This document shows positions 4,582 to 15,065 of a stretch of DNA of 40,088 bases, piece after piece. The stretch is from Neisseria sp. (GTDB lineage Bacteria; Pseudomonadota; Gammaproteobacteria; Burkholderiales; Neisseriaceae). Below the pieces are notes generated by a model, which worked only from the letters and a program-made list of their open reading frames with translations, ran no database searches and was not told the origin of the DNA. The stretch is from the NCBI RefSeq assembly GCF_030523955.1, contig NZ_JAUNHL010000024.1:1-40088 (forward strand), read 5' to 3'. Positions within the stretch are counted from its first letter, which is position 1. Each line of letters starts with the position of its first letter. Position numbers and translations under genes: made by a program.

Positions 4582-5907
<1,326 letters not shown>

Positions 5908-5924
5908 AAGTCAACAGCCAGCCA

Positions 5925-5992
5925 TATAGCGGATTTAATTTAGTGGCTTAAATTCAGAATAGGACAATACGCCGAGCCGAAGACAGTACAGG
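5925..5992. mobile_element. Truncated Correia-type element
   Basis: Starts TATAGCGGATTTAATTTA and runs through AGGACAATACGCC..GAAGACAGTACAG, matching one arm and part of the core of Correia repeat elements. It stops where a second element begins (5993). Confidence 0.65.
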
Positions 5993-6150
5993 TATAGCGG
6001 ATTAACTTAACTTCCGCTACCTCGTAGCTGCGCCAAAGCTCAAAGAGTAACGATTTTGTAAACCGCTGAAGCGGCAACAGAATCAGTTCCGTACGTGTGT
6101 ACTGTCTGCGGCTTACTGCCTTGTATCGAAAGTTAATTAAATCCGCTATA
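5993..6150. mobile_element. Full-length Correia-type element (158 bp)
   Basis: Bounded by TATAGCGGATTAACTTAA and ATTAAATCCGCTATA inverted ends. The core contains AGCTCAAAGAGTAACGATT, AGCGGCAACAGAATC and TACTGTCTGCGGC, as in neisserial Correia/NEMIS elements, with GCGG in place of the meningococcal GTGG. It matches 28254-28409 closely. It sits beside the partial element at 5925, so the two are nested or tandem. Confidence 0.85.
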
Positions 6151-6377
6151 TCTCTTTTTGATCTCGATATTTAATCTTAATAGCTTTGAATGTTTAACGG
6201 TTAATCAATCCAAATTTAAGAAATTCCCCTTAAATATGTGTTAATAAACCCGATTATTTTAGAATACTATAGCTATTTTCAACATTTCACTCACCAATAA
6301 TTGAATTATGCAAAATAAATTGATAGCATACATTCATCATAAACAATAAAAGAAACGATTATCAAAAGGAATTTGTT
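6151..6377 (+). other. AT-rich leader before the island genes
   Basis: No gene. The base composition drops sharply in GC compared with murA. AGAATACTATAGCTA near 6258-6273 could include a -10, but no convincing -35 is seen. AAAAGGA at 6364-6370 is the ribosome binding site of the next gene. Confidence 0.4.
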
Positions 6378-7532
6378 TTGAATATTGATTTTCAACTGCC
6401 GCAAGATACGTTTTTGAGCGAATACCGCTACCGGAAGCCCTATCTTTTCAAACAAGCTGTCAGCCTGCCCGATAGAGAAACGGTTTGGCGCGGCATTAAC
6501 GAAATGTACCAACGAGCCAATCCGGCAGACGATTTATTCAAGTTCCGCAAAGGCGCACTGATTCCCAAAGAGCATTATGTGGAATCTTTCAATGATGTCG
6601 GCCGCATCCGTTACCGCTTCAAAAAAGCGGCGGTATACGAATACCTGAAAGACGGCGCAACTTTGGTCTACAACCGTATCAACAACGAACCGTTTTCCGA
6701 CAACATTGCGCGGCAAATCGCCCGTTTTACCCAAGCGCATACTATCGTTAGCGGCTATCTTGCCTTTGGAGAGGATGCATCCTACAAAAACCATTGGGAC
6801 ACCCGCGACGTATTCGCCGTACAGCTGATAGGTAAAAAGCATTGGAGCCTTTCCGCCCCCAATTTCGACATGCCGCTTTATATGCAGCAGAGCAAAGATT
6901 TGCCCCATATTCCCGAGCCGGAAACTGCTGATATGGAAGTGGTGTTGGAAGCCGGTGATATCCTTTATATCCCGCGCGGCTGGTGGCACAACCCCGTGCC
7001 CATGGGTTGCGAAACATTCCATCTTGCCGTCGGCACTTTTCCTCCTAACGGTTATAACTATATGGAATGGTTGATGAAAAAAGTCCCTGATATTGCCGGA
7101 TTCCGCCACAGCCTGCAAAGCTGGACGCATGATGAAGGCCGTCTGAAAGCCGCCGCTGAAGAATTTGCCGCACAAATCACCGAGAAAATCAATTATGAAA
7201 CCTTTATGCAGGAATTTCTCGGCGATCAGCGAACCGATAGCGGCTTCAACTTTGAAATCTTAGGTAACCCGTATTCAGAAGGCTTGCCCGAAGATGCATT
7301 ATTGAGACTGAATACGATAGACGATTCAACCTTAGAGAAAGGGTATCTGATTTCAAACGGGATTAAACTGAATTTAGACGAAGAAAACATACACTTGCTG
7401 AAAAAACTCAGGCCAAACCGCTCAGTAACGCTCCAACAACTTTACCAAGAAAAAAGCGGGAAAGAACAACATAAAATCAGAGAGATAATTGAAAGATTAG
7501 CTCAATTCGACGTTTTAGAGATAAATAATTAA
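6378..7532 (+). CDS. JmjC/cupin-fold Fe(II)/2-oxoglutarate oxygenase, candidate peptide hydroxylase
   Basis: This 384-residue protein belongs to the JmjC-type cupin family that includes bacterial RoxA/YcfD and human MINA53/NO66. The metal triad is H139-x-D141 (NHWDTRD) and H204 (PRGWWHNP). KKHW (153-156) and surrounding strands fit the cupin barrel, and the last 150 residues look like the dimerisation and winged-helix parts of ribosomal oxygenases. Known relatives hydroxylate Arg or His of ribosomal proteins. Here the gene is first in a cluster with double-glycine peptides and their exporter, so a peptide substrate is my inference. The start is TTG at 6378, with AAAAGGA 7 bases before it; no in-frame ATG is near. 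An exact AG-DUS (7136-7147) lies in the reading frame. It is 10 bases from the next gene. Confidence 0.82.
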   Translation: MNIDFQLPQDTFLSEYRYRKPYLFKQAVSLPDRETVWRGINEMYQRANPADDLFKFRKGALIPKEHYVESFNDVGRIRYRFKKAAVYEYLKDGATLVYNRINNEPFSDNIARQIARFTQAHTIVSGYLAFGEDASYKNHWDTRDVFAVQLIGKKHWSLSAPNFDMPLYMQQSKDLPHIPEPETADMEVVLEAGDILYIPRGWWHNPVPMGCETFHLAVGTFPPNGYNYMEWLMKKVPDIAGFRHSLQSWTHDEGRLKAAAEEFAAQITEKINYETFMQEFLGDQRTDSGFNFEILGNPYSEGLPEDALLRLNTIDDSTLEKGYLISNGIKLNLDEENIHLLKKLRPNRSVTLQQLYQEKSGKEQHKIREIIERLAQFDVLEINN

Positions 7533-7542
7533 ATATATTTTT

Positions 7543-7746
7543 ATGAAAAACTTATTTAATCTAAAAAATATAATCAAATTTATTCTTTTTATATCAATAA
7601 TGTCGACCTTGGCATTATTTGATAAATATGTTCTTTATAAAATCATTGAAAATAAATATTATAAAGACATTAGCTTTTATTTTTTTATATTTCCAGTTGG
7701 AATTTGGCTTTTTTCAAAAGCTAAAAAGTTCTTTAACTTGGATTAG
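7543..7746 (+). CDS. Small two-helix membrane protein, immunity candidate
   Basis: 67 residues, MKNLFNLKNIIKFILFISIM..., with two hydrophobic helices (about 10-27 and 43-58) and a basic C-terminus (KAKKFFNLD). No family recognised. It begins 10 bases after the oxygenase and ends 19 bases before peptide 1, and the position beside a secreted peptide suggests a self-immunity role. Very AT-rich, and the ribosome binding site is poor. Confidence 0.6.
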   Translation: MKNLFNLKNIIKFILFISIMSTLALFDKYVLYKIIENKYYKDISFYFFIFPVGIWLFSKAKKFFNLD

Positions 7747-7765
7747 TAAATTACAGGAGAAAATT

Positions 7766-8155
7766 ATGTATGAATTGTCTATTTATGATTTAAGAGTTGT
7801 ATCTGGTGGCTCCGGCGGAAAAACAGCTCAGGGAGCAATTACCGGGATGGGTGCTTATGCAGGCGTACAAATAGTTAAGGAGCAAGAAGTTACCGTATCG
7901 GGCTTAGCGGGGTCTGCATTTGCTGGAGCCATTGGTTCCTCTACTACCAATTCAGCGATGTTCGGCGCTATGGGGGGAGCCGCTATAGAACGGGGGGTAG
8001 ATTATATAGGGAATCAGTTAAATTCGAATCCCGTTAATTTAGGCCCAGGTTTCATGGTGCAGCCAGATTCAACTATGCCTCTATTAATGCAGCAGGATGG
8101 AACTAATTATGACAACTTTGCACAGGATAAGTCTGGCAATAGTTATGGAGGTTGA
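7766..8155 (+). CDS. Double-glycine leader peptide 1 (bacteriocin/microcin-like precursor)
   Basis: 129 residues. The leader MYELSIYDLRVVSGG has the class II pattern: E3, L4, L9, V12 and a GG at 14-15 where the C39 protease would cut. SGG follows, so cleavage at 17-18 is also possible. The mature part is rich in Gly/Ala with GxxxG motifs (GAITGMGAYAG, GLAGSAFAGAIG, GAMGGAA), then a polar tail with QQDGTNYDNFAQD and a GNSYGG end. There is no cysteine, so disulfide or lanthionine bridging is excluded. The ATG at 7766 follows CAGGAGA by 5 bases; an upstream in-frame ATG would add a sequence overlapping the preceding gene and is rejected. Likely a secreted membrane-active peptide. Confidence 0.8.
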   Translation: MYELSIYDLRVVSGGSGGKTAQGAITGMGAYAGVQIVKEQEVTVSGLAGSAFAGAIGSSTTNSAMFGAMGGAAIERGVDYIGNQLNSNPVNLGPGFMVQPDSTMPLLMQQDGTNYDNFAQDKSGNSYGG

Positions 8156-8225
8156 GCCTCAATTTCATATTGAGGCTATCGGGATTTGTCTTCCATTATT
8201 CACTCATAAAAAGAAAGGAGGCATT

Positions 8226-8426
8226 TTGGTTACCATATTAAATATTTGCAAATTCATATTTATATCGATAGCGGTGTTAAGTGTTCTTTTATGTTTATAT
8301 GAACTGCTGTTCAACAACTTTGATAAAAGAATTTTTTTACTGTATGCCAAAGGTTTTTTAATTTTCCTGATTCTCAGCATTGGCAGCCATTACGCAATAA
8401 GAAAATATTTTTGGCAGGCTAAATAG
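8226..8426 (+). CDS. Small membrane protein with TTG start, immunity candidate
   Basis: About 66 residues with two hydrophobic helices (NICKFIFISIAVLSVLLCLYELLF and KGFLIFLILSIGSHYAI) and a basic end (RKYFWQAK). The frame is open from 8097, but a perfect AAAGGAGG (8214-8221) lies 4 bases before an in-frame TTG at 8226, so I place the start there. No family recognised. It lies 70 bases after peptide 1 and probably protects against it. Confidence 0.6.
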   Translation: MVTILNICKFIFISIAVLSVLLCLYELLFNNFDKRIFLLYAKGFLIFLILSIGSHYAIRKYFWQAK

Positions 8427-8467
8427 TATCGGATAGGAGAAGATTCAATTGAGATTGTGAGGGAACA

Positions 8468-8884
8468 ATGAGAGATTTATCAAAACATACTATTTCTCTA
8501 ATCAATACTTCGTCAATTTCATTTATTTTATTAAATCTTTATATTATTTATAGCGAATTTAGGTTTGACTTGTCGGATAGCCATATTGCCCGATTATTTG
8601 CCATTCTGGTATCGCCGGCTTTTGCAGCCTCTACGCTGGTATTGATCTATAAAATGATTAGTTTCAAGCCAAATGCTGCCGATTATGCCCAAATCCAATA
8701 TTTAAAAATTTTGCTGTTTTATTTAACTGTTATTTTTTATTGTGTTTTTATCTTTTTTTTAAAAAAAGACAATCTTTATTTTAATTTAAGCATTTATACC
8801 CTTGTTTCGATAATGGCAATATTTTGTTTAAGCCATTTGTTTTTATTAGTCAAATTTCACTTGCGAGGTAATAAAAATGTATGA
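8468..8884 (+). CDS. Four-helix membrane protein, immunity or accessory candidate
   Basis: 138 residues with four predicted membrane helices (about 15-30, 43-62, 82-99, 106-130). No family recognised. AGGGAA lies a few bases before the ATG. The 3' end overlaps the start of peptide 2 by 8 bases (ATGTATGA), so the two are translationally coupled, as is common for peptide/immunity pairs. A T8-A7 tract at 8753-8767 inside the frame is a possible slippage site. Confidence 0.6.
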   Translation: MRDLSKHTISLINTSSISFILLNLYIIYSEFRFDLSDSHIARLFAILVSPAFAASTLVLIYKMISFKPNAADYAQIQYLKILLFYLTVIFYCVFIFFLKKDNLYFNLSIYTLVSIMAIFCLSHLFLLVKFHLRGNKNV

Positions 8885-9191
8885 ATTGAATATTCAAGAT
8901 TTGAAAATTGTTGGCGGCTCGGTAGGTGTTCCCGGAGCAGTGGTAGGAGGAGCTGCCGGTTTGGCTGCATATTCGGGATCTGTTGCAGCAAGTGGCGAAG
9001 AGTTCAGCATTCGAGACGCAACTTATGCAACTGGTCTTGGCGCTATGGCTGGGGCATTGACTGGACCAGTAGGAATCAAGACTGCGGTTGATACGATAGG
9101 GATATCTACCGCTGGCGGAATTGCTCAGGGTGGTCTGGAGCGGATAGATAAGCAGCAGGATGGAAACAATTACGATGGTACTAATTATTGA
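8877..9191 (+). CDS. Double-glycine leader peptide 2 (bacteriocin/microcin-like precursor)
   Basis: 104 residues. The leader MYELNIQDLKIVGG is nearly the same as that of peptide 1, with GG at 13-14. The mature region has repeated small-residue motifs (GAVVGGAAGLAAYSG, GLGAMAGALTG) that form a hydrophobic hairpin-like segment. The tail is IDKQQDGNNYDGTNY, which shares QQDG-x-NYD with peptide 1. No cysteine. GAGG precedes the ATG by 9 bases. The two peptides may act together, as in two-component class IIb bacteriocins; the length is at the long end for that class. Confidence 0.8.
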   Translation: MYELNIQDLKIVGGSVGVPGAVVGGAAGLAAYSGSVAASGEEFSIRDATYATGLGAMAGALTGPVGIKTAVDTIGISTAGGIAQGGLERIDKQQDGNNYDGTNY

Positions 9192-9222
9192 ATCCTAGGG
9201 CGTTAGAGAGCAAGAGGATAAA

Positions 9223-9414
9223 ATGGATATACAAAAAATAGAAATTCTTTTAGGAGCCGTTTTTTTAGGAAGTTTTTTACTACAGGTTATTATCGGAAAG
9301 CTATTGGGATGGGAGTATAAATTTGATAAAGAAAAATACGGATTCGGTATCAGATGGGTATTTTTTCTCATCTCAGGGTTGATAACCGGGCTGGTTAAAT
9401 TATTTGCCGGTTAA
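9223..9414 (+). CDS. Small two-helix membrane protein
   Basis: 63 residues, MDIQKIEILLGAVFLGSFLLQVIIGKLLGW..., with helices at about 7-25 and 45-62 and a charged loop (EYKFDKEKYGFGIRW). AGAGGAT lies 4 bases before the ATG. Follows peptide 2 by 31 bases, so it is the best immunity candidate for that peptide. It resembles the next gene product in the ..KYGF.I.. motif. Confidence 0.6.
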   Translation: MDIQKIEILLGAVFLGSFLLQVIIGKLLGWEYKFDKEKYGFGIRWVFFLISGLITGLVKLFAG

Positions 9415-9450
9415 CCGCGTTTGGGATAAATAAACTCAAAAGGATTTTTT

Positions 9451-9624
9451 ATGTTATCACCCTATATTACGGTTTGTATCAGTCTGTTTTTTGTGTTTTT
9501 CTTCTTGACACGAATATTTCAATTAGGCGCGGTATTTAAAAACAAATATGGCTTCAGCATTCATATTTTGTCGGCGGCGGTTGCCGTTTTCATTACCCTT
9601 GCTCTGTATTGGTATCATTATTAA
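9451..9624 (+). CDS. Very small two-helix membrane protein (57 residues)
   Basis: MLSPYITVCISLFFVFFFLTR... to ...LALYWYHY. AAAAGGA lies 6 bases before the ATG. Two helices (about 5-20 and 38-54) are joined by FQLGAVFKNKYGFSI; the KYGF piece recurs in the preceding protein (KEKYGFGI), so the two may be paralogues. Function unknown; immunity candidate. Confidence 0.55.
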   Translation: MLSPYITVCISLFFVFFFLTRIFQLGAVFKNKYGFSIHILSAAVAVFITLALYWYHY

Positions 9625-9720
9625 TCCGGATTCATATTTAAATTTAACAGACTGATGTAGAAAATTCCAACGTTGCTTACATTTTTCCAACATAAGATTT
9701 TTGATTATCAGGGTGTTACG

Positions 9721-9915
9721 ATGAAAAAGATAATCCGCCCCGCCTTTACCGCTATAGCCATATTTATATTTCTGTTTTTACATAGATTGCTGGCAGGCAA
9801 TGTATGCATGCCTGAGTCGGGTCGGGAATATTGGCTGAGCTATACGTTGTTTGCCGTTGCAGGAGTGGCATTGATTGAGCCGATTATCCGATACCTCACC
9901 AAAAAAAACGGATAA
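9721..9915 (+). CDS. Small membrane protein, last of the small-gene cluster
   Basis: 64 residues from the ATG at 9721 (MKKIIRPAFTAIAIFIFLFLHRLL...), with two hydrophobic helices and a basic end (RYLTKKNG). The frame opens earlier (9673), but MKKIIRP is the more natural start. No family recognised. It ends 115 bases before the HlyD gene. Confidence 0.5.
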   Translation: MKKIIRPAFTAIAIFIFLFLHRLLAGNVCMPESGREYWLSYTLFAVAGVALIEPIIRYLTKKNG

Positions 9916-9966
9916 GCATCCAGTCTCCGCCAAAACGGCAGCAAATATAGATACCGTTGTTTTTCT

Positions 9967-9999
9967 TTCAGGCTGCCTTTCTGCTTTAGGCCGTCTGAA
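9967..9999. other. Non-native uptake sequences upstream of the HlyD gene
   Basis: 9988-9999 is AGGCCGTCTGAA, the AG-DUS dialect. 9967-9978 is the complement of AGGCAGCCTGAA, which I recall as the Kingella-type dialect. The pair forms an imperfect hairpin before the exporter genes and has no TG-wadDUS character. Confidence 0.7.
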
Positions 10000-10030
10000 A
10001 ATTTTGTCTTTATTTTTCAACATTCAAACC

Positions 10031-11302
10031 ATGTCCCAAACCCCTTTCTTCCGTCCTGAAGTATTGGCTGCCCGTGAAAACCGTTGGACGGGCAGGATTA
10101 TTCTCACGCGGCCGTTTTCGTTTGCTTTTTTGACAGGCTGTGCCTGTTTGATTGCGGCAGTGGTGATACTGTTTTTGATTTTCGGCAGCTATACCGAGAA
10201 AACAACGGTGGAAGGCCAGCTTTTGCCGGATTCGGGAGTGGTGCGTGTGTATGCGCCGGATTCCGGCGTGATTACGGAAAAATTCGTGAACGATGGCGAC
10301 AAGGTAAAGGCCGGCGACAAATTGTTCGCGCTCTCAACATCGCGCTTCGGTGCACAGGGCAATATCCAACAGCGGCTGGCTTCGGAAGCGGCCTTGAAAA
10401 AAACGTTGGCGGAACAGGAGTTGGCACGGCTGAAGCTGATTCACCAAAATGAAAAACGCTCGCTGGAAAGCGCGATTACCCGCCTGAAGAGCCAACACCG
10501 CCATATCGTACAACGTATTGCCAGCCAAAAAAGCCGGGTAAGGCTGGCGGAAGAAATGTTGGGAAAATACCGTTATCTGAATGCGAATGATGCGGTGTCG
10601 AAGCAGGAAGTAATGAATATGGAAGCTGAAATGCTGGAGCAAAAATCACAACTGGATGCCTACCGCAGTGAAGAGGCGGGCTTACTGCAAGAAATCCAGG
10701 CACAGAACCTGACGCTTGAGAGCCTGCCGCAACGCCATCAAACGGAACAAAGCCAGCTTGAACGCTCGATTGCAGACATTTCGCAAGAGGTGCTGGATTT
10801 TGAGATGCGTTCTGAACAGATTATCCGCGCCGGTAAATCAGGCTATGCGGCCACGCCGAATGTGGAAACCGGTCAGCAGGTGGATCCTGCGCGGCTTTTG
10901 ATGAGCATTGTGCCGGAACAGACCGAGCTATATGCCAGCCTTTATGTGCCGAGCAAGGCTGCAGGGTTTGTGAGGCCTAAGGAAAAAGTAGTGCTGCGTT
11001 ATCAGGCATATCCGTATCAGAAATTCGGCCATGCGGAGGGGGAAATTGTTTCGGTGGCAAAAACAGCCTTGGGCAAGCAGGAACTTTCAGGTTTGGGGCT
11101 GATTTTTGCCAATCCCGCCTTGGTTAACGAACCGGCCTATTTGGTGAAGGTGAAGTTGAAAAAGCAGTCGGTAACAGCTTACGGCGAGGAAAAGCCGTTA
11201 CAAATCGGCATGATTTTAGAAGCGGATATTCTTCACGGCAGCAAGAAATTGTATGAGTGGGTGCTGGATCCGCTTTACAGTGTTTCAGGAAAATTAAATT
11301 AA
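10031..11302 (+). CDS. HlyD-family periplasmic adaptor of the peptide exporter
   Basis: 423 residues from MSQTPFFRPEVLAAREN. One membrane segment (about 29-52), then a biotinyl-lipoyl half (TVEGQLLPDSGVVRVYAPDSGVI), a long coiled coil (about 110-270), the second lipoyl half and a C-terminal beta domain. This is the membrane fusion protein that couples the inner-membrane ABC exporter to an outer-membrane TolC-type channel. It is shorter and more CvaA-like than HlyD of RTX toxins. No outer-membrane channel gene lies in the window, so a housekeeping TolC must be used. The frame is open upstream to 9875, but the MSQTP start is the natural family start. Confidence 0.88.
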   Translation: MSQTPFFRPEVLAARENRWTGRIILTRPFSFAFLTGCACLIAAVVILFLIFGSYTEKTTVEGQLLPDSGVVRVYAPDSGVITEKFVNDGDKVKAGDKLFALSTSRFGAQGNIQQRLASEAALKKTLAEQELARLKLIHQNEKRSLESAITRLKSQHRHIVQRIASQKSRVRLAEEMLGKYRYLNANDAVSKQEVMNMEAEMLEQKSQLDAYRSEEAGLLQEIQAQNLTLESLPQRHQTEQSQLERSIADISQEVLDFEMRSEQIIRAGKSGYAATPNVETGQQVDPARLLMSIVPEQTELYASLYVPSKAAGFVRPKEKVVLRYQAYPYQKFGHAEGEIVSVAKTALGKQELSGLGLIFANPALVNEPAYLVKVKLKKQSVTAYGEEKPLQIGMILEADILHGSKKLYEWVLDPLYSVSGKLN

Positions 11303-11532
11303 ACTTCAAAAATTTAATACGTTTTCAAAAAGCAAGCCAAGGTTTTGCCACCCCACCCGGATGGGGCGCAACTATCGGTAGTGCTCTTGGTTCAAGACTT
11401 GGTACAGCCGGTAGCCTTGGCGGAGCTGCTCTGGGACACTATATTGAAACCAGAGACTATAACCAAATGGGCGAGGATTATATCAATCAAGTTCACACGG
11501 AAATCAGAAACGGAAACATTCCGGCAGATTAA
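11303..11532 (+). pseudogene. Leaderless remnant of a third glycine-rich peptide gene
   Basis: The frame reads GFATPPGWGATIGSALGSRL, then GTAGSLGGAALGHYIETRDY, then a polar tail ending NIPAD and TAA at 11532. The GxxxG-rich hydrophobic stretch is like the mature parts of the two nearby peptides. No MYEL..GG leader and no good start codon precede it; the frame runs back into the 3' end of the HlyD gene. I read it as a bacteriocin gene that lost its 5' part by deletion. The following small membrane gene would be its former immunity gene. Confidence 0.55.
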
Positions 11533-11545
11533 AGAAAGGAGGGAA

Positions 11546-11743
11546 ATGATGAAGAAACTGAAAATATTCAGGCTCTTGGGTTGCTTATCAGGGGCACTGA
11601 TTTATTATTTATTCATTAGTATTACCGATACCTCCAATATCTATAAACTGGTTGCTTTTTCTATCTGTACCAGTTTGGGGGTATACAGTGCAGAAAAGTT
11701 ATACAAGACTTGTGCCGATAAAAAAAATCGTCTTGATTTTTAA
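11546..11743 (+). CDS. Small two-helix membrane protein, immunity candidate of the remnant peptide
   Basis: 65 residues, MMKKLKIFRLLGCLSGALIY..., with helices at about 9-26 and 34-50 and a basic C-terminus (CADKKNRLDF). AAGGAGGG (11536-11543) is a strong ribosome binding site directly before ATGATG. No family recognised. It may be kept for protection against a peptide this strain no longer makes. Confidence 0.6.
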   Translation: MMKKLKIFRLLGCLSGALIYYLFISITDTSNIYKLVAFSICTSLGVYSAEKLYKTCADKKNRLDF

Positions 11744-11781
11744 TCCATACAAGTTTAGATAACAGAAAAGCAATCTGATAA

Positions 11782-11810
11782 AGGCCGCCTGAAAGCCTTT
11801 CAGACGGCCT
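11782..11810. terminator. AG-DUS hairpin
   Basis: AGGCCGCCTGAAAG and CTTTCAGACGGCCT form a stem with almost no loop. The right arm is an exact AG-DUS complement (11799-11810). Followed by TCCTAATAATTTCT rather than a long T tract, so termination may be partial. Confidence 0.65.
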
Positions 11811-11847
11811 TCCTAATAATTTCTATCTGACTAATCAAACCTGAATA

Positions 11848-13941
11848 ATGGATTATCTAAACCGCCTCTCCTTCGGTTTTACCCGAAAACTCCCCGTGGT
11901 ATTGCAAACCGAAATCGCCGAATGCGGCTTGGCCTGTTTGGCTTCTATATTGCGTTATCACGGTTTTTATACCGATTTGCGTACACTGCGGCAGAAATAT
12001 GCGTTTTCGCTCAAAGGGGCGAATATGGCCGACATCGTGCGCTTCGGCGACGATATGAATTTAACTTCGCGCGCGCTGCGTTTGGAATTGGACGAATTGG
12101 GCAATCTGCGCCTGCCTTGTATCCTGCATTGGGATTTGAATCATTTTGTGGTGTTGAAATCGGTAGCGGCCGAGCATATCGTGGTGATGGATCCGGCAAC
12201 GGGCTTGCGCAAAGTGAAGATGTCGGAGGTATCGCGCAAGTTTACCGGCGTGGCCTTGGAGATGTGGCCGAACACGCAGTTTGAGGAAAAGAAAAACGAA
12301 CAACAGATTAAAATCCTGCCCATGCTGAAGGGCATTACGGGCTTGCGCCGCTCGCTGGTACAACTGTTGCTCTTGGCGGTGGCCATGGAAGTGTTTGCTT
12401 TGGTATCGCCTTTTTTCATACAATGGGTTATCGACCATGTGGTTGTAACCGCCGACCGTAATCTGCTGGTAACACTGGCTTTGGGCTTCGGCTTGTTAAT
12501 GCTGGTGCAGCAGGCGGTGTCTTTGCTTCAGTCTTGGGTAGGAATGTATTTCGCCACAACCTTGAGTATGCAGTGGAAATCGAATATTTTCAAACGCCTG
12601 CTGGATTTGCCGACCGATTATTTTACCAAGCGGCATTTGGGTGATGTGGTGTCTCGTTTCGGTGCGGCAGACAGTATTCAAAATACGCTCACATCAACTT
12701 TTTTCGTGTTGGTTCTCAACAGTTTGATGGCTGTGTTTACGCTTACACTAATGTTGGTATACAGCCCGAAGCTGACGGCGGTGGTGTTGGTTACGCTACT
12801 GATTTATATTTTAATCCGCTGGGCTGCCTATTACCCGCTACGCCGCGCCACGGAAGAAAATATTGTACACGCCGCCAAACAGAGCACTTATTTTATGGAA
12901 ACCATACGGGGCGTACAAACGGTGAAACAGTTCGGCAAAAGCACGCAACGGCACGGCACATGGATGGGCTTGTTTGCCGATACAGTCAACACGGGGCTAA
13001 CTGTACAAAAACTAGGCATTTGGTTTAGCTTTGCCAATACACTGTTGTTTGGTGCCGCCAATATCTTGATTGTGTATTTGGGGGCGCTGGATATTTTGGA
13101 CGGCTTGTTTACCGTAGGCGTATTTATGGCTTTTTTGGCCTATAAAAACCAGTTTGAAAGCCGTATCGGTTCTTTGATTAATCAGTTTGTGCAGGTAAAA
13201 ATGCTGTCGCTGCACGGTGAACGCTTGGCCGATATCGTGTTAACCGAAACAGAAAGCGAACACACACCCGACATCGGTATTCCCAATCTTGAGGGCGGCA
13301 TCGAAATCCGCTTGGAAAACGTGTCGTTCCGCTATGCCGAAAACGAGCCTTATGTGTTGCAAAACGTGAATTTAACTGTCAAGCCGGGAGAGTCGCTGGC
13401 TTTGGTTGGCCGGTCGGGTTGCGGCAAGTCAACGCTTTTGGATATTTTGTGCGGCAACCTCAAGCCCGAATCGGGCAAAGTGCTGGTCAACGGCCACGAT
13501 ATCTACCGCTTGCCGCCGCGCTTTATCCGCAGCTTGAGTGCAGTGGTGCGGCAAAACGATGTTTTGTTTGCCGGTTCGATTGCGGACAACATCGGCTTTT
13601 TTGATGAAACCCCCAACCGGGAAAAAATCGAACGGTGCGCCCGTATGGCGATGATACACGATGAAATTTCTGCCATGCCCATGGGCTATGAAACCTTAAT
13701 CGGCGATATGGGCAGCGCACTTTCAGGCGGCCAGAAGCAGCGTATCGTATTGGCTCGCGCCTTGTATCAAAATCCGAAAATCCTGTTTCTCGACGAAGCC
13801 ACCAGTCATTTGGATATCGCCAATGAAAAAGCGGTCAATGCCTATCTGAAAAATTTACCGCTTACCAAAGTCATGGCGGCACACCGGAAAGAAACCGTTG
13901 AATCGGCTGATAGGGTTTTTGATTTGGCTGCGACCGCTTGA
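11848..13941 (+). CDS. Peptidase-containing ABC transporter (C39, CvaB-like) exporting double-glycine peptides
   Basis: 697 residues in the standard order. Residues 1-130 are a C39 cysteine peptidase with Q20, C26 (AECGLACL), H99 (LNHF) and D115 (DPATG), all catalytic positions intact. Six membrane helices lie at about 165-440. The ATPase has Walker A GRSGCGKST (521-529), signature LSGGQKQR (625-632) and Walker B ILFLDEA with E650. Such proteins cut the leader after GG and export the mature peptide. The presence of the protease matches the two leader peptides upstream. The ATG at 11848 has a weak ribosome binding site. Confidence 0.93.
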   Translation: MDYLNRLSFGFTRKLPVVLQTEIAECGLACLASILRYHGFYTDLRTLRQKYAFSLKGANMADIVRFGDDMNLTSRALRLELDELGNLRLPCILHWDLNHFVVLKSVAAEHIVVMDPATGLRKVKMSEVSRKFTGVALEMWPNTQFEEKKNEQQIKILPMLKGITGLRRSLVQLLLLAVAMEVFALVSPFFIQWVIDHVVVTADRNLLVTLALGFGLLMLVQQAVSLLQSWVGMYFATTLSMQWKSNIFKRLLDLPTDYFTKRHLGDVVSRFGAADSIQNTLTSTFFVLVLNSLMAVFTLTLMLVYSPKLTAVVLVTLLIYILIRWAAYYPLRRATEENIVHAAKQSTYFMETIRGVQTVKQFGKSTQRHGTWMGLFADTVNTGLTVQKLGIWFSFANTLLFGAANILIVYLGALDILDGLFTVGVFMAFLAYKNQFESRIGSLINQFVQVKMLSLHGERLADIVLTETESEHTPDIGIPNLEGGIEIRLENVSFRYAENEPYVLQNVNLTVKPGESLALVGRSGCGKSTLLDILCGNLKPESGKVLVNGHDIYRLPPRFIRSLSAVVRQNDVLFAGSIADNIGFFDETPNREKIERCARMAMIHDEISAMPMGYETLIGDMGSALSGGQKQRIVLARALYQNPKILFLDEATSHLDIANEKAVNAYLKNLPLTKVMAAHRKETVESADRVFDLAATA

Positions 13942-14013
13942 AATGTTTGCTGACATTAAAACTTACCCAAACAGGTTTTATCAGGAAAATCAAAACCATT
14001 TCGAGCAAACCCG

Positions 14014-14051: not shown

Positions 14052-14209
<158 letters not shown>

Positions 14210-14405: not shown

Positions 14406-15065
14406 ATGCGCATCCTCCTTGCCGAAGACGACCAAGCCATCGCCCAAGCCGTATGCAGCCTGCTGGGCGCGCAAGGCTATGCCGCCGATCATGTGGCCGA
14501 CGGCGAAGCGGCGTTAAACGCCTTGTCGCTACAATCCTACGACATCCTGCTGCTCGATTTGGGCCTGCCCTGCCGCGACGGTTTGGCGGTTTTACAAAGC
14601 CTTCGCCGCCGGCAGCAAGACTTGCCGGTACTCATCATTACCGCCCGCGATACAGTGGACGACCGCATCGCGGGCCTTGATGCCGGCGCCGACGACTACA
14701 TCATCAAGCCTTTTGATTTGCAGGAATTGCTGGCGCGCATCCGCGCCGTTTTGCGCCGCCGCAGCGGGCGGGCCGACGCGCTCGTTAGCAATGGCATCCT
14801 CACCCTCAACCCGGCCAAGCGCGAAGCCCTGCGCGACGGCAAAATCCAGCGCTTGCCCGCCCGAGAATACGCCCTGCTCGAAACCCTGATGCTGCGCGCC
14901 GGCACCATTTTTTCCCGCAGCGATCTGGAAGAAAAGCTCTATGGCTGGAACGAAGAAGTCGAGAGCAACGCGGTGGAATTCCTGATCCACCAATTGCGCA
15001 AAAAACTCGGCAGCGATGTGATTAAAAACGTGCGCGGTATCGGCTGGTTTGTTGAAAAAGGTTAA
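14406..15065 (+). CDS. OmpR/PhoB-family response regulator
   Basis: 219 residues. Receiver domain 1-115 with acidic pocket E7/D8, phosphorylation site D51 (LLLDLGLP), T79 and K101 (IIKPFD). The winged-helix DNA-binding domain is 124-218, with LPAREYALLETLMLRAGTIF and the VRGIGWFV end. The pattern is like QseB/BasR/TctD. It forms an operon with the kinase 42 bases downstream. Its target may be the direct repeats before the acid-shock-like gene at 16670. Confidence 0.9.
   Translation: MRILLAEDDQAIAQAVCSLLGAQGYAADHVADGEAALNALSLQSYDILLLDLGLPCRDGLAVLQSLRRRQQDLPVLIITARDTVDDRIAGLDAGADDYIIKPFDLQELLARIRAVLRRRSGRADALVSNGILTLNPAKREALRDGKIQRLPAREYALLETLMLRAGTIFSRSDLEEKLYGWNEEVESNAVEFLIHQLRKKLGSDVIKNVRGIGWFVEKG

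Follow-up and report, generated by a model that had tools for sequence, protein, structure and literature searches.

Why should an oxygenase of the ribosomal-oxygenase type be encoded within a peptide-secretion cluster? The question is raised by a 40,088-nucleotide stretch of DNA from Neisseria sp. (NCBI RefSeq assembly GCF_030523955.1, contig NZ_JAUNHL010000024.1, positions 1 to 40,088, forward strand), referred to here as the window, which is contig C54 of the 2.81 Mb genome G000. Positions 6378–13941 encode, on one strand, a JmjC oxygenase (OX), two double-glycine (GG) peptides (PEP1 and PEP2), several small membrane proteins, an HlyD adaptor and an ATP-binding cassette (ABC) exporter with a C39 protease, just as an earlier, sequence-only reading of this DNA had described. 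As judged from its two GG-leader precursors and its C39 exporter with HlyD, the island belongs among the peptide-secretion systems of the microcin/class II bacteriocin type. The ends of its peptides share a short tag that tracks OX across genera, and this tag may be what OX modifies. The comparative evidence makes it somewhat probable that the tag is recognised and hydroxylated by OX prior to export, which would yield a modified subclass of class II microcins.

A peptide tag that tracks the oxygenase

The tag, D-x-[SAD]-G-[NST]-[ND]-Y, is a portable, Asp/Asn/Tyr-rich element common to the ends of PEP1 and PEP2; the sequence-only reading had overlooked this tag. It is carried at either end by peptides of unlike bodies: C-terminally in Neisseria, Acinetobacter, Pseudomonas, Vreelandella, Psychrobacter and Lautropia, and directly past the GG site in Moraxella.

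Beside OX, the tag is present in 25 of 38 GG peptides and at 16 of 22 loci. OX-less Neisseria clusters with the same exporter type (66–69% identical), OX absence being judged within the stretch compared, contain none (0/43 peptides, 0/7 loci), and the same is true of other OX-less C39 loci (0/8 peptides, 0/41 loci). The matched Neisseria set was added because the first control set, comprising 36 OX-less C39 loci, held just eight strict GG peptides; five further Neisseriaceae control loci contained no GG peptides. By chance, the tag arises in 3.9% of shuffled mature peptides. When only loci with an open OX are counted, the tag occurs at 13 of 18, compared with 0 of 7 OX-less Neisseria loci (Fisher p 0.0016). 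Furthermore, genome G032 has both kinds of cluster: in one (L035), a single open OX stands alongside up to three tagged peptides, and the other (L138), which is OX-less, has no tagged peptide. The proposal of the sequence-only reading that the oxygenase acts on the exported peptides is thus partly supported, the OX-tracking tag providing comparative support.

Alternatively, the tag could be an unmodified metal- or receptor-binding element, with OX acting elsewhere in the cluster, for example on the leader or the body. A DKSGNNYGD-like sequence resembles short acidic metal-binding loops. However, the bodies of peptides from distant loci share little by eye, the tag and the leader being the common features, and the leader consensus occurs in OX-less clusters too, so that this explanation appears improbable.

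Organisation of the island

The island and its borders in the window comprise the following features.

5750–5907, no strand: left direct repeat, consisting of the murA 3′ end and a hairpin terminator; the copy lies in and past the intact murA at 4582–5832 (nucleotide comparison)
6378–7532, + strand: OX, JmjC ribosomal-oxygenase-type Fe(II)/2-oxoglutarate oxygenase, 384 aa, TTG start (open reading frame, Pfam, alignment, tree, fold)
6792–6989, + strand: codon stretch of the putative Fe-binding triad H139, D141 (HWD) and H204 (WWH) (alignment)
7543–7746, + strand: 67-aa hydrophobic protein with one predicted transmembrane (TM) stretch, a possible immunity protein (open reading frame, hydropathy)
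7766–8155, + strand: PEP1 precursor, 129 aa; leader at 7766–7810, glycine-rich body, tag-bearing tail DGTNYDNFAQDKSGNSYGG at ~8096–8152
8229–8426, + strand: 65-aa two-TM protein, immunity-like; the GTG start is the analyst's choice (open reading frame, hydropathy)
8468–8884, + strand: 138-aa four-TM protein, 96% identical in N. dentiae locus L034 (open reading frame, hydropathy)
8877–9191, + strand: PEP2 precursor, 104 aa; leader at 8877–8918, tail DGNNYDGTNY at ~9159–9188
9223–9414, + strand: 63-aa two-TM protein, immunity-like (open reading frame, hydropathy)
9451–9624, + strand: 57-aa two-TM protein, immunity-like (open reading frame, hydropathy)
9721–9915, + strand: 64-aa two-TM protein (open reading frame, hydropathy)
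10031–11302, + strand: HlyD-type periplasmic adaptor, 423 aa (domain search)
~11345–11532, + strand: third GG peptide, a leaderless, decayed remnant of the ...GEDYINQVHTEIRNGNIPAD type (open reading frame; similar ends in L046, L049 and L053 by eye)
11549–11743, + strand: 64-aa open reading frame past the remnant, with one predicted TM stretch (open reading frame, hydropathy)
11848–13941, + strand: C39 peptidase-containing ABC transporter (PCAT), the exporter, 697 aa (domain search)
14052–14209, no strand: right direct repeat, murA 3′ end and terminator (nucleotide comparison)

The leaders of PEP1 (MYELSIYDLRVVSGG) and PEP2 (MYELNIQDLKIVGG) had been called near-identical; they are only alike, matching at 10 of 15 positions with one gap (hand count). 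The decayed third peptide had escaped notice. In a Pfam search, the exporter matched Peptidase_C39 (2.4e-34), ABC_membrane and ABC_tran. The small hydrophobic open reading frames, with starts at 7543, 8229, 8468, 9223, 9451, 9721 and 11549, are interspersed among these genes. A second C39-ABC protein is encoded elsewhere in the genome (G000:C62, locus L117) by a 711-aa open frame; it is 29% identical, and no strict GG peptide was counted alongside it.

Recurrence of the cluster

When species genomes were scanned with OX as the only query, 15 loci were recovered, in Neisseria, Moraxella, Vreelandella, Pseudomonas, Acinetobacter, Psychrobacter and Lautropia. At 13 of these, a C39 exporter lies ≤10 kb from OX, although it is cut by the contig end in L044 and is in split frames in L053. 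The two exceptions are L054, which stops 0.6 kb past OX, and L049, which consists of peptide cassettes only. As a C39 exporter is nearby at 13 of the 15 loci, the oxygenase is, on gene context, part of the peptide system, and recurrence of the arrangement in other genera excludes chance.

The scan was supplemented by plasmid records from M. catarrhalis (pLQ510, L031) and A. baumannii (L033), and 22 OX loci were examined overall. The sequence-only reading had held that an oxygenase standing alone in most genomes, with no peptide genes, would refute it; instead, a loose regular expression found at least one GG-leader open reading frame at each of the 22 loci. The nearest relative at the locus is that of N. 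dentiae (L034/L042), with 85% identity in OX, 98% in HlyD and 97% in the exporter. Two 2.17-Mb N. gonorrhoeae records filed as plasmids (NZ_CP119142.1 and NZ_CP119140.1) are, judging from their size, evidently chromosomes.

A distinct clade of ribosomal-oxygenase-type enzymes

OX matches the Pfam families JmjC_2 (7e-30) and ROXA-like_wH (3e-5), and the JmjC_2 domain was matched by 17 of 17 OX members tested. The HxD...H triad, described as intact in the sequence-only reading, lies at residues 139, 141 and 204 and is invariant in 17 of 17 aligned relatives; the motifs HWD and GWWH are present in 18 of 18 OX proteins. Comparison of three pairs gave a ratio of nonsynonymous to synonymous substitution rates (dN/dS) of 0.13–0.27. 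Like members of the ribosomal oxygenase (ROX) family, OX has a C-terminal winged helix and the full-length YcfD fold.

Could OX then be a stray ribosomal oxygenase or stress enzyme, unrelated to the peptides? Its fold and sequence are of the YcfD/NO66 kind, as this would predict, and fold searches listed no family as excluded. In the tree, however, OX forms one supported clade, set apart from 19 housekeeping homologues of the YcfD/RoxA and NO66/MINA53 kind, and unlike these it is located in peptide clusters. No housekeeping homologue was found in the window genome at E ≤ 0.001 with OX as query. On gene context and tree, together with the tag–OX correlation, a stray enzyme is held to be very unlikely, and, as far as context shows, the substrate of OX would be something other than a ribosomal protein.

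One Moraxella metagenome-assembled genome (L044) encodes two OX paralogues (8595–9740 and 10001–11137), 42% and 57% identical to the window OX, and five strict GG peptides.

Exporter lineages and peptide turnover

In the exporter tree, the Neisseria exporters from loci with OX (5 rows, support 86/74) and without OX (7 rows, 100/100) are neighbours, and those of Moraxellaceae with OX fall outside both groups. The Pseudomonas and Vreelandella exporters are distant, being 44–46% identical to the window exporter. Presence of OX requires at least three changes on this tree, which by itself cannot separate gains of OX from losses. As OX clusters sit on distant exporter lineages, OX and the tag behave as one module, retained, acquired or lost jointly on different exporters.

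The peptide genes themselves appear to turn over. The window and N. dentiae have in common OX, up to ~7410 (codon 344), and the exporter; the peptide cassettes between them are partly different. In L035, the cassettes are separated by partial copies of the OX 3′ end (7711–8247 and 9225–9761), and similar pieces are present in L036/L043 (L043 11862–12056) and in M. catarrhalis L049 (11339–11653). The position of these repeats between cassettes suggests that peptide cassettes are exchanged through the OX 3′ end.

Comparison with known microcin systems

The sequence-only reading knew of no described system of the same make-up. Such a system is known: the mcaABCD cluster of A. baumannii ATCC 17978, reported in 2023, encodes a microcin, a cupin-like protein, HlyD and a C39 SunT exporter, and constitutes a working microcin system, Mcc17978 (PMC10333792). 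Mcc17978 is under iron control and is taken up through Fiu/PiuA (PMC10333792). The same four parts (peptide, cupin/JmjC protein, HlyD and C39 exporter) make up mca and the window island, but mca has one peptide, whereas the window encodes several different ones and has, in addition, numerous genes for small membrane proteins and a murA repeat at the flanks. In the Acinetobacter plasmid locus L033, the genes are ordered as in mca; the two were matched by gene order alone, which makes McaB the counterpart of OX by position. The L033 OX is 42% identical to that of the window.

The M. catarrhalis plasmid pLQ510 carries mcbABCI, encoding a GG bacteriocin, HlyD and a C39 exporter, for which killing and immunity have been published (PMC2761928). 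In the pLQ510 record (L031, 3–1120), an OX relative lies upstream of mcbA, with 57% identity over 86% of OX; the words cupin and JmjC are absent from the available text of the 2009 mcb paper (PMC2761928). pLQ510 differs from the window in that its OX is split into two frames, McbC is tagless, and the interval from OX to mcbA contains DNQDKSDNNYSD, a degenerate remnant that bears the tag.

In the E. coli plasmid p0.1229_3, which encodes Mcc1229 (mct), the ABC transporter adjoins a cupin, CirA is the receptor, and mctDE confer immunity (PMC8853679). Activity of Mcc1229 requires the cupin gene mctC, for which its authors suggest a role in processing (PMC8853679). The cupin of the E. coli plasmid locus L041, identified as an MctC relative by its ABC–cupin–DUF2164 layout, has 297 aa, is 25% identical over 52% of OX, and falls outside the OX clade.

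Neisseria also has the nap island, which resembles the window in its GG peptides and C39 gene but differs in its size (~3.4 kb), its other genes and its autolysis-promoting peptides; napR-napABC-napI-napH lie between napP and napF (PMC11798529). In N. gonorrhoeae, the Nap peptides have no detectable antimicrobial activity and promote autolysis, and the window peptides might similarly target the producer's own population, in autolysis or signalling, rather than competitors. However, the published description of the nap island includes no oxygenase, the words cupin, JmjC, oxygenase, hydroxyl and murA finding no match in the available text (PMC11798529), and Mcc17978, which by gene order is an OX-type relative, inhibits other strains (PMC10333792). 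An own-population target is accordingly considered doubtful, at long odds.

Maturation or immunity

The mca system also supplies direct evidence for an immunity role of the positional counterpart of OX: an A. baumannii strain that lacks the cluster was protected from Mcc17978 by mcaB on its own (PMC10333792). OX could correspondingly be the immunity factor of the cluster, modifying a target or receptor in the producer or capturing the incoming tagged peptide, and so neutralising all tagged peptides. The tag would then track OX because OX protects against tagged peptides only. Members of the OX fold family modify ribosomal proteins, that is, cellular targets, as would suit such a role.

Beside the McaB result and the ambiguity of the exporter tree, several observations weigh against maturation of the tag by OX. 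Solved ribosomal oxygenases of the OX fold, in the sources at hand, modify Arg or His, and the tag has neither. OX is open in three Neisseria loci with a broken exporter or adaptor (L038, L039 and L040), as an orphan immunity gene might behave. OX is full-length and open in 18 of 22 loci and broken in four, being split in L031 and L047, a fragment in L049 and frame-shifted in L053; tagged peptides are still open in three of the four (L047, L049 and L053, not L031), so the tag can outlive OX. Six of the 22 OX loci have no match to the tag expression (L031, L038, L039, L040, L044 and L045), and L045 combines an open OX with a tagless peptide. Finally, the tag counts rest on an expression devised after the peptides beside OX had been viewed, and peptides of the same locus are not independent. 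Among the six loci, L040 and L044 have looser tag-like forms (GNGY; GVEY, GLDY, GSGY); the first peptide looks truncated in L038 and L039, the latter having in addition a Cys-rich tail; and L031 has the split OX, degenerate remnant and tagless McbC of pLQ510.

The immunity role meets difficulties of its own. Small hydrophobic, immunity-like proteins already adjoin the peptides in the window and in eight further loci tested, Acinetobacter included, with two TM stretches predicted by hydropathy in L033, L145, L052, L055 and L056 and one in L050, L051 and L054. In an A. baumannii plasmid (strain KAB08; L145, 6001–8178), ISAba10 cuts OX after ~codon 284–289, leaving the catalytic half, and the genes for the peptide, HlyD and the exporter have open frames; in L047, a split OX accompanies an exporter whose frame is open as far as the contig end. 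Across 83 Neisseriaceae genomes, no OX turned up outside a locus of this kind, and 8 of 8 genomes with a match have it next to HlyD. The dN/dS between the L038 and L039 copies of OX, 0.36 on only 19 changes, tips the balance neither way. Moreover, Mcc1229 depends on its cupin for activity and owes its immunity to a different pair of genes. Immunity as the function of OX is therefore regarded as a serious but less likely possibility. Under either maturation or immunity, OX seems to act with or on the tag.

Phase variation was considered for the broken genes and rejected, as no long homopolymer was present at six inspected breaks (four OX copies, one exporter and one adaptor).

Proposed maturation pathway

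For tag maturation by OX, the following pathway is proposed; we infer the hydroxylation by OX, the tag as its substrate, the modified residue, export, killing and the roles of the small proteins. The island would produce class II microcin-type bacteriocins, with PEP1 and PEP2 made as precursors consisting of a GG leader, a glycine-rich body and the tag. Cytosolic OX would bind the precursor and hydroxylate residues of the tag using Fe(II), O2 and 2-oxoglutarate. Once the tag is hydroxylated, C39 would cleave after GG, and the peptide would be released via the ABC–HlyD exporter and an assumed TolC-type channel encoded elsewhere in the genome. The modified tag would most likely serve for recognition or uptake at the target cell, the membrane of which the peptide body would disturb, and the small hydrophobic proteins would be peptide-specific immunity proteins.

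There is precedent for such chemistry. The JmjC/cupin enzymes BipG and PbsQ of biphenomycin biosynthesis hydroxylate ornithine in the precursors of ribosomally synthesised and post-translationally modified peptides (RiPPs) (PMC12707348, PMC12257519). They resemble OX as JmjC/cupin-like enzymes acting on a ribosomally made precursor, but differ in that the ornithine lies in a macrocyclic RiPP, other enzymes are involved, and the products are not C39-exported microcins (PMC12707348, PMC12257519). In addition, fish and algae have fusions in which a fold like the RiPP recognition element (RRE) is joined to a PF08007 JmjC domain, and bacterial homologues occur in RiPP-like settings (PMC12710340). 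By analogy with these fusions, the winged helix of OX is a candidate leader-binding part.

A more specific and rather unlikely variant is that the tag becomes a siderophore mimic. OX would convert it to an iron-binding form, with hydroxy-Asp/Asn or catechol, that enters prey via catecholate siderophore receptors; OX would also protect the producer, and with cassettes swapped via the OX 3′ end, one enzyme would serve a changing arsenal. The idea derives from the Fiu/PiuA and CirA receptors reported for Mcc17978 and Mcc1229 (PMC10333792, PMC8853679). If true, it would provide uptake without the enzyme-made siderophore borne by class IIb microcins, and would bring the McaB immunity result into line with the tag correlation. 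A scan for the Fur consensus upstream of OX in the window gave a best match of 12/19, equalled by 72% of shuffles. Among 17 upstream regions scanned, L050 and L056 beat nearly all shuffles and L034 was borderline (0.05). As the window match is no better than shuffles, an iron link is unsupported for Neisseria.

Class II microcins are described as having minimal if any post-translational modification (PMC10333792). Literature searches for a cupin or JmjC protein associated with GG peptides led to the mca, mct, mcb, nap and biphenomycin papers. The make-up of the cluster is already known via mca, and the portable OX-linked tag appears to be new: no description of the cupin as a ribosomal-oxygenase-type enzyme, or of a tag tracking it, was found in literature that covered few subscription journals and no supplementary files, the tag itself not being searchable as a word. 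If tag hydroxylation is correct, a dedicated ribosomal-oxygenase-type enzyme and a portable tag would define a hydroxylated microcin subclass, with OX and tag ranging over Neisseria, Moraxella, Acinetobacter, Psychrobacter, Pseudomonas, Vreelandella and Lautropia. For the cupin genes of Mcc17978 and Mcc1229, so far unexplained, there would be a concrete, testable substrate hypothesis, and the tag would be a handle for genome mining.

Island borders and further observations

The island is low in GC: the content of the eight 1-kb bins from 6001 to 14000 is 34–51%; elsewhere in the window, one bin is at 47.6% and the others at 50–63%. The copies of the murA 3′ end that flank the island are 98% identical across 94 nt + 53 nt. 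L034 has a full murA copy downstream, and L035 has an N-terminal piece upstream and a full copy downstream; murA is therefore a neighbour of the island in three genomes. The 20-kb stretches L036–L040 showed no murA. A search for an empty insertion site covered 30 loci centred on relatives of the regulator at 14406; the window's own locus was the only one with a murA piece, and no empty site came to light.

Between murA and OX, at 5924–6153, lie inverted repeats, ATATAGCGGATTTAATT...AATTAAATCCGCTATAT, which we take to be akin to the Correia-type repeat element of Neisseria. Scans of the window with Rfam (gathering threshold) and for tRNAs gave no match, and comparison with viral contigs gave a single distant match (26% identity). 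Among the OX-less Neisseria clusters, L133 (1598–6460) carries twelve consecutive GG-leader open reading frames, some of them Trp- and Pro-rich.

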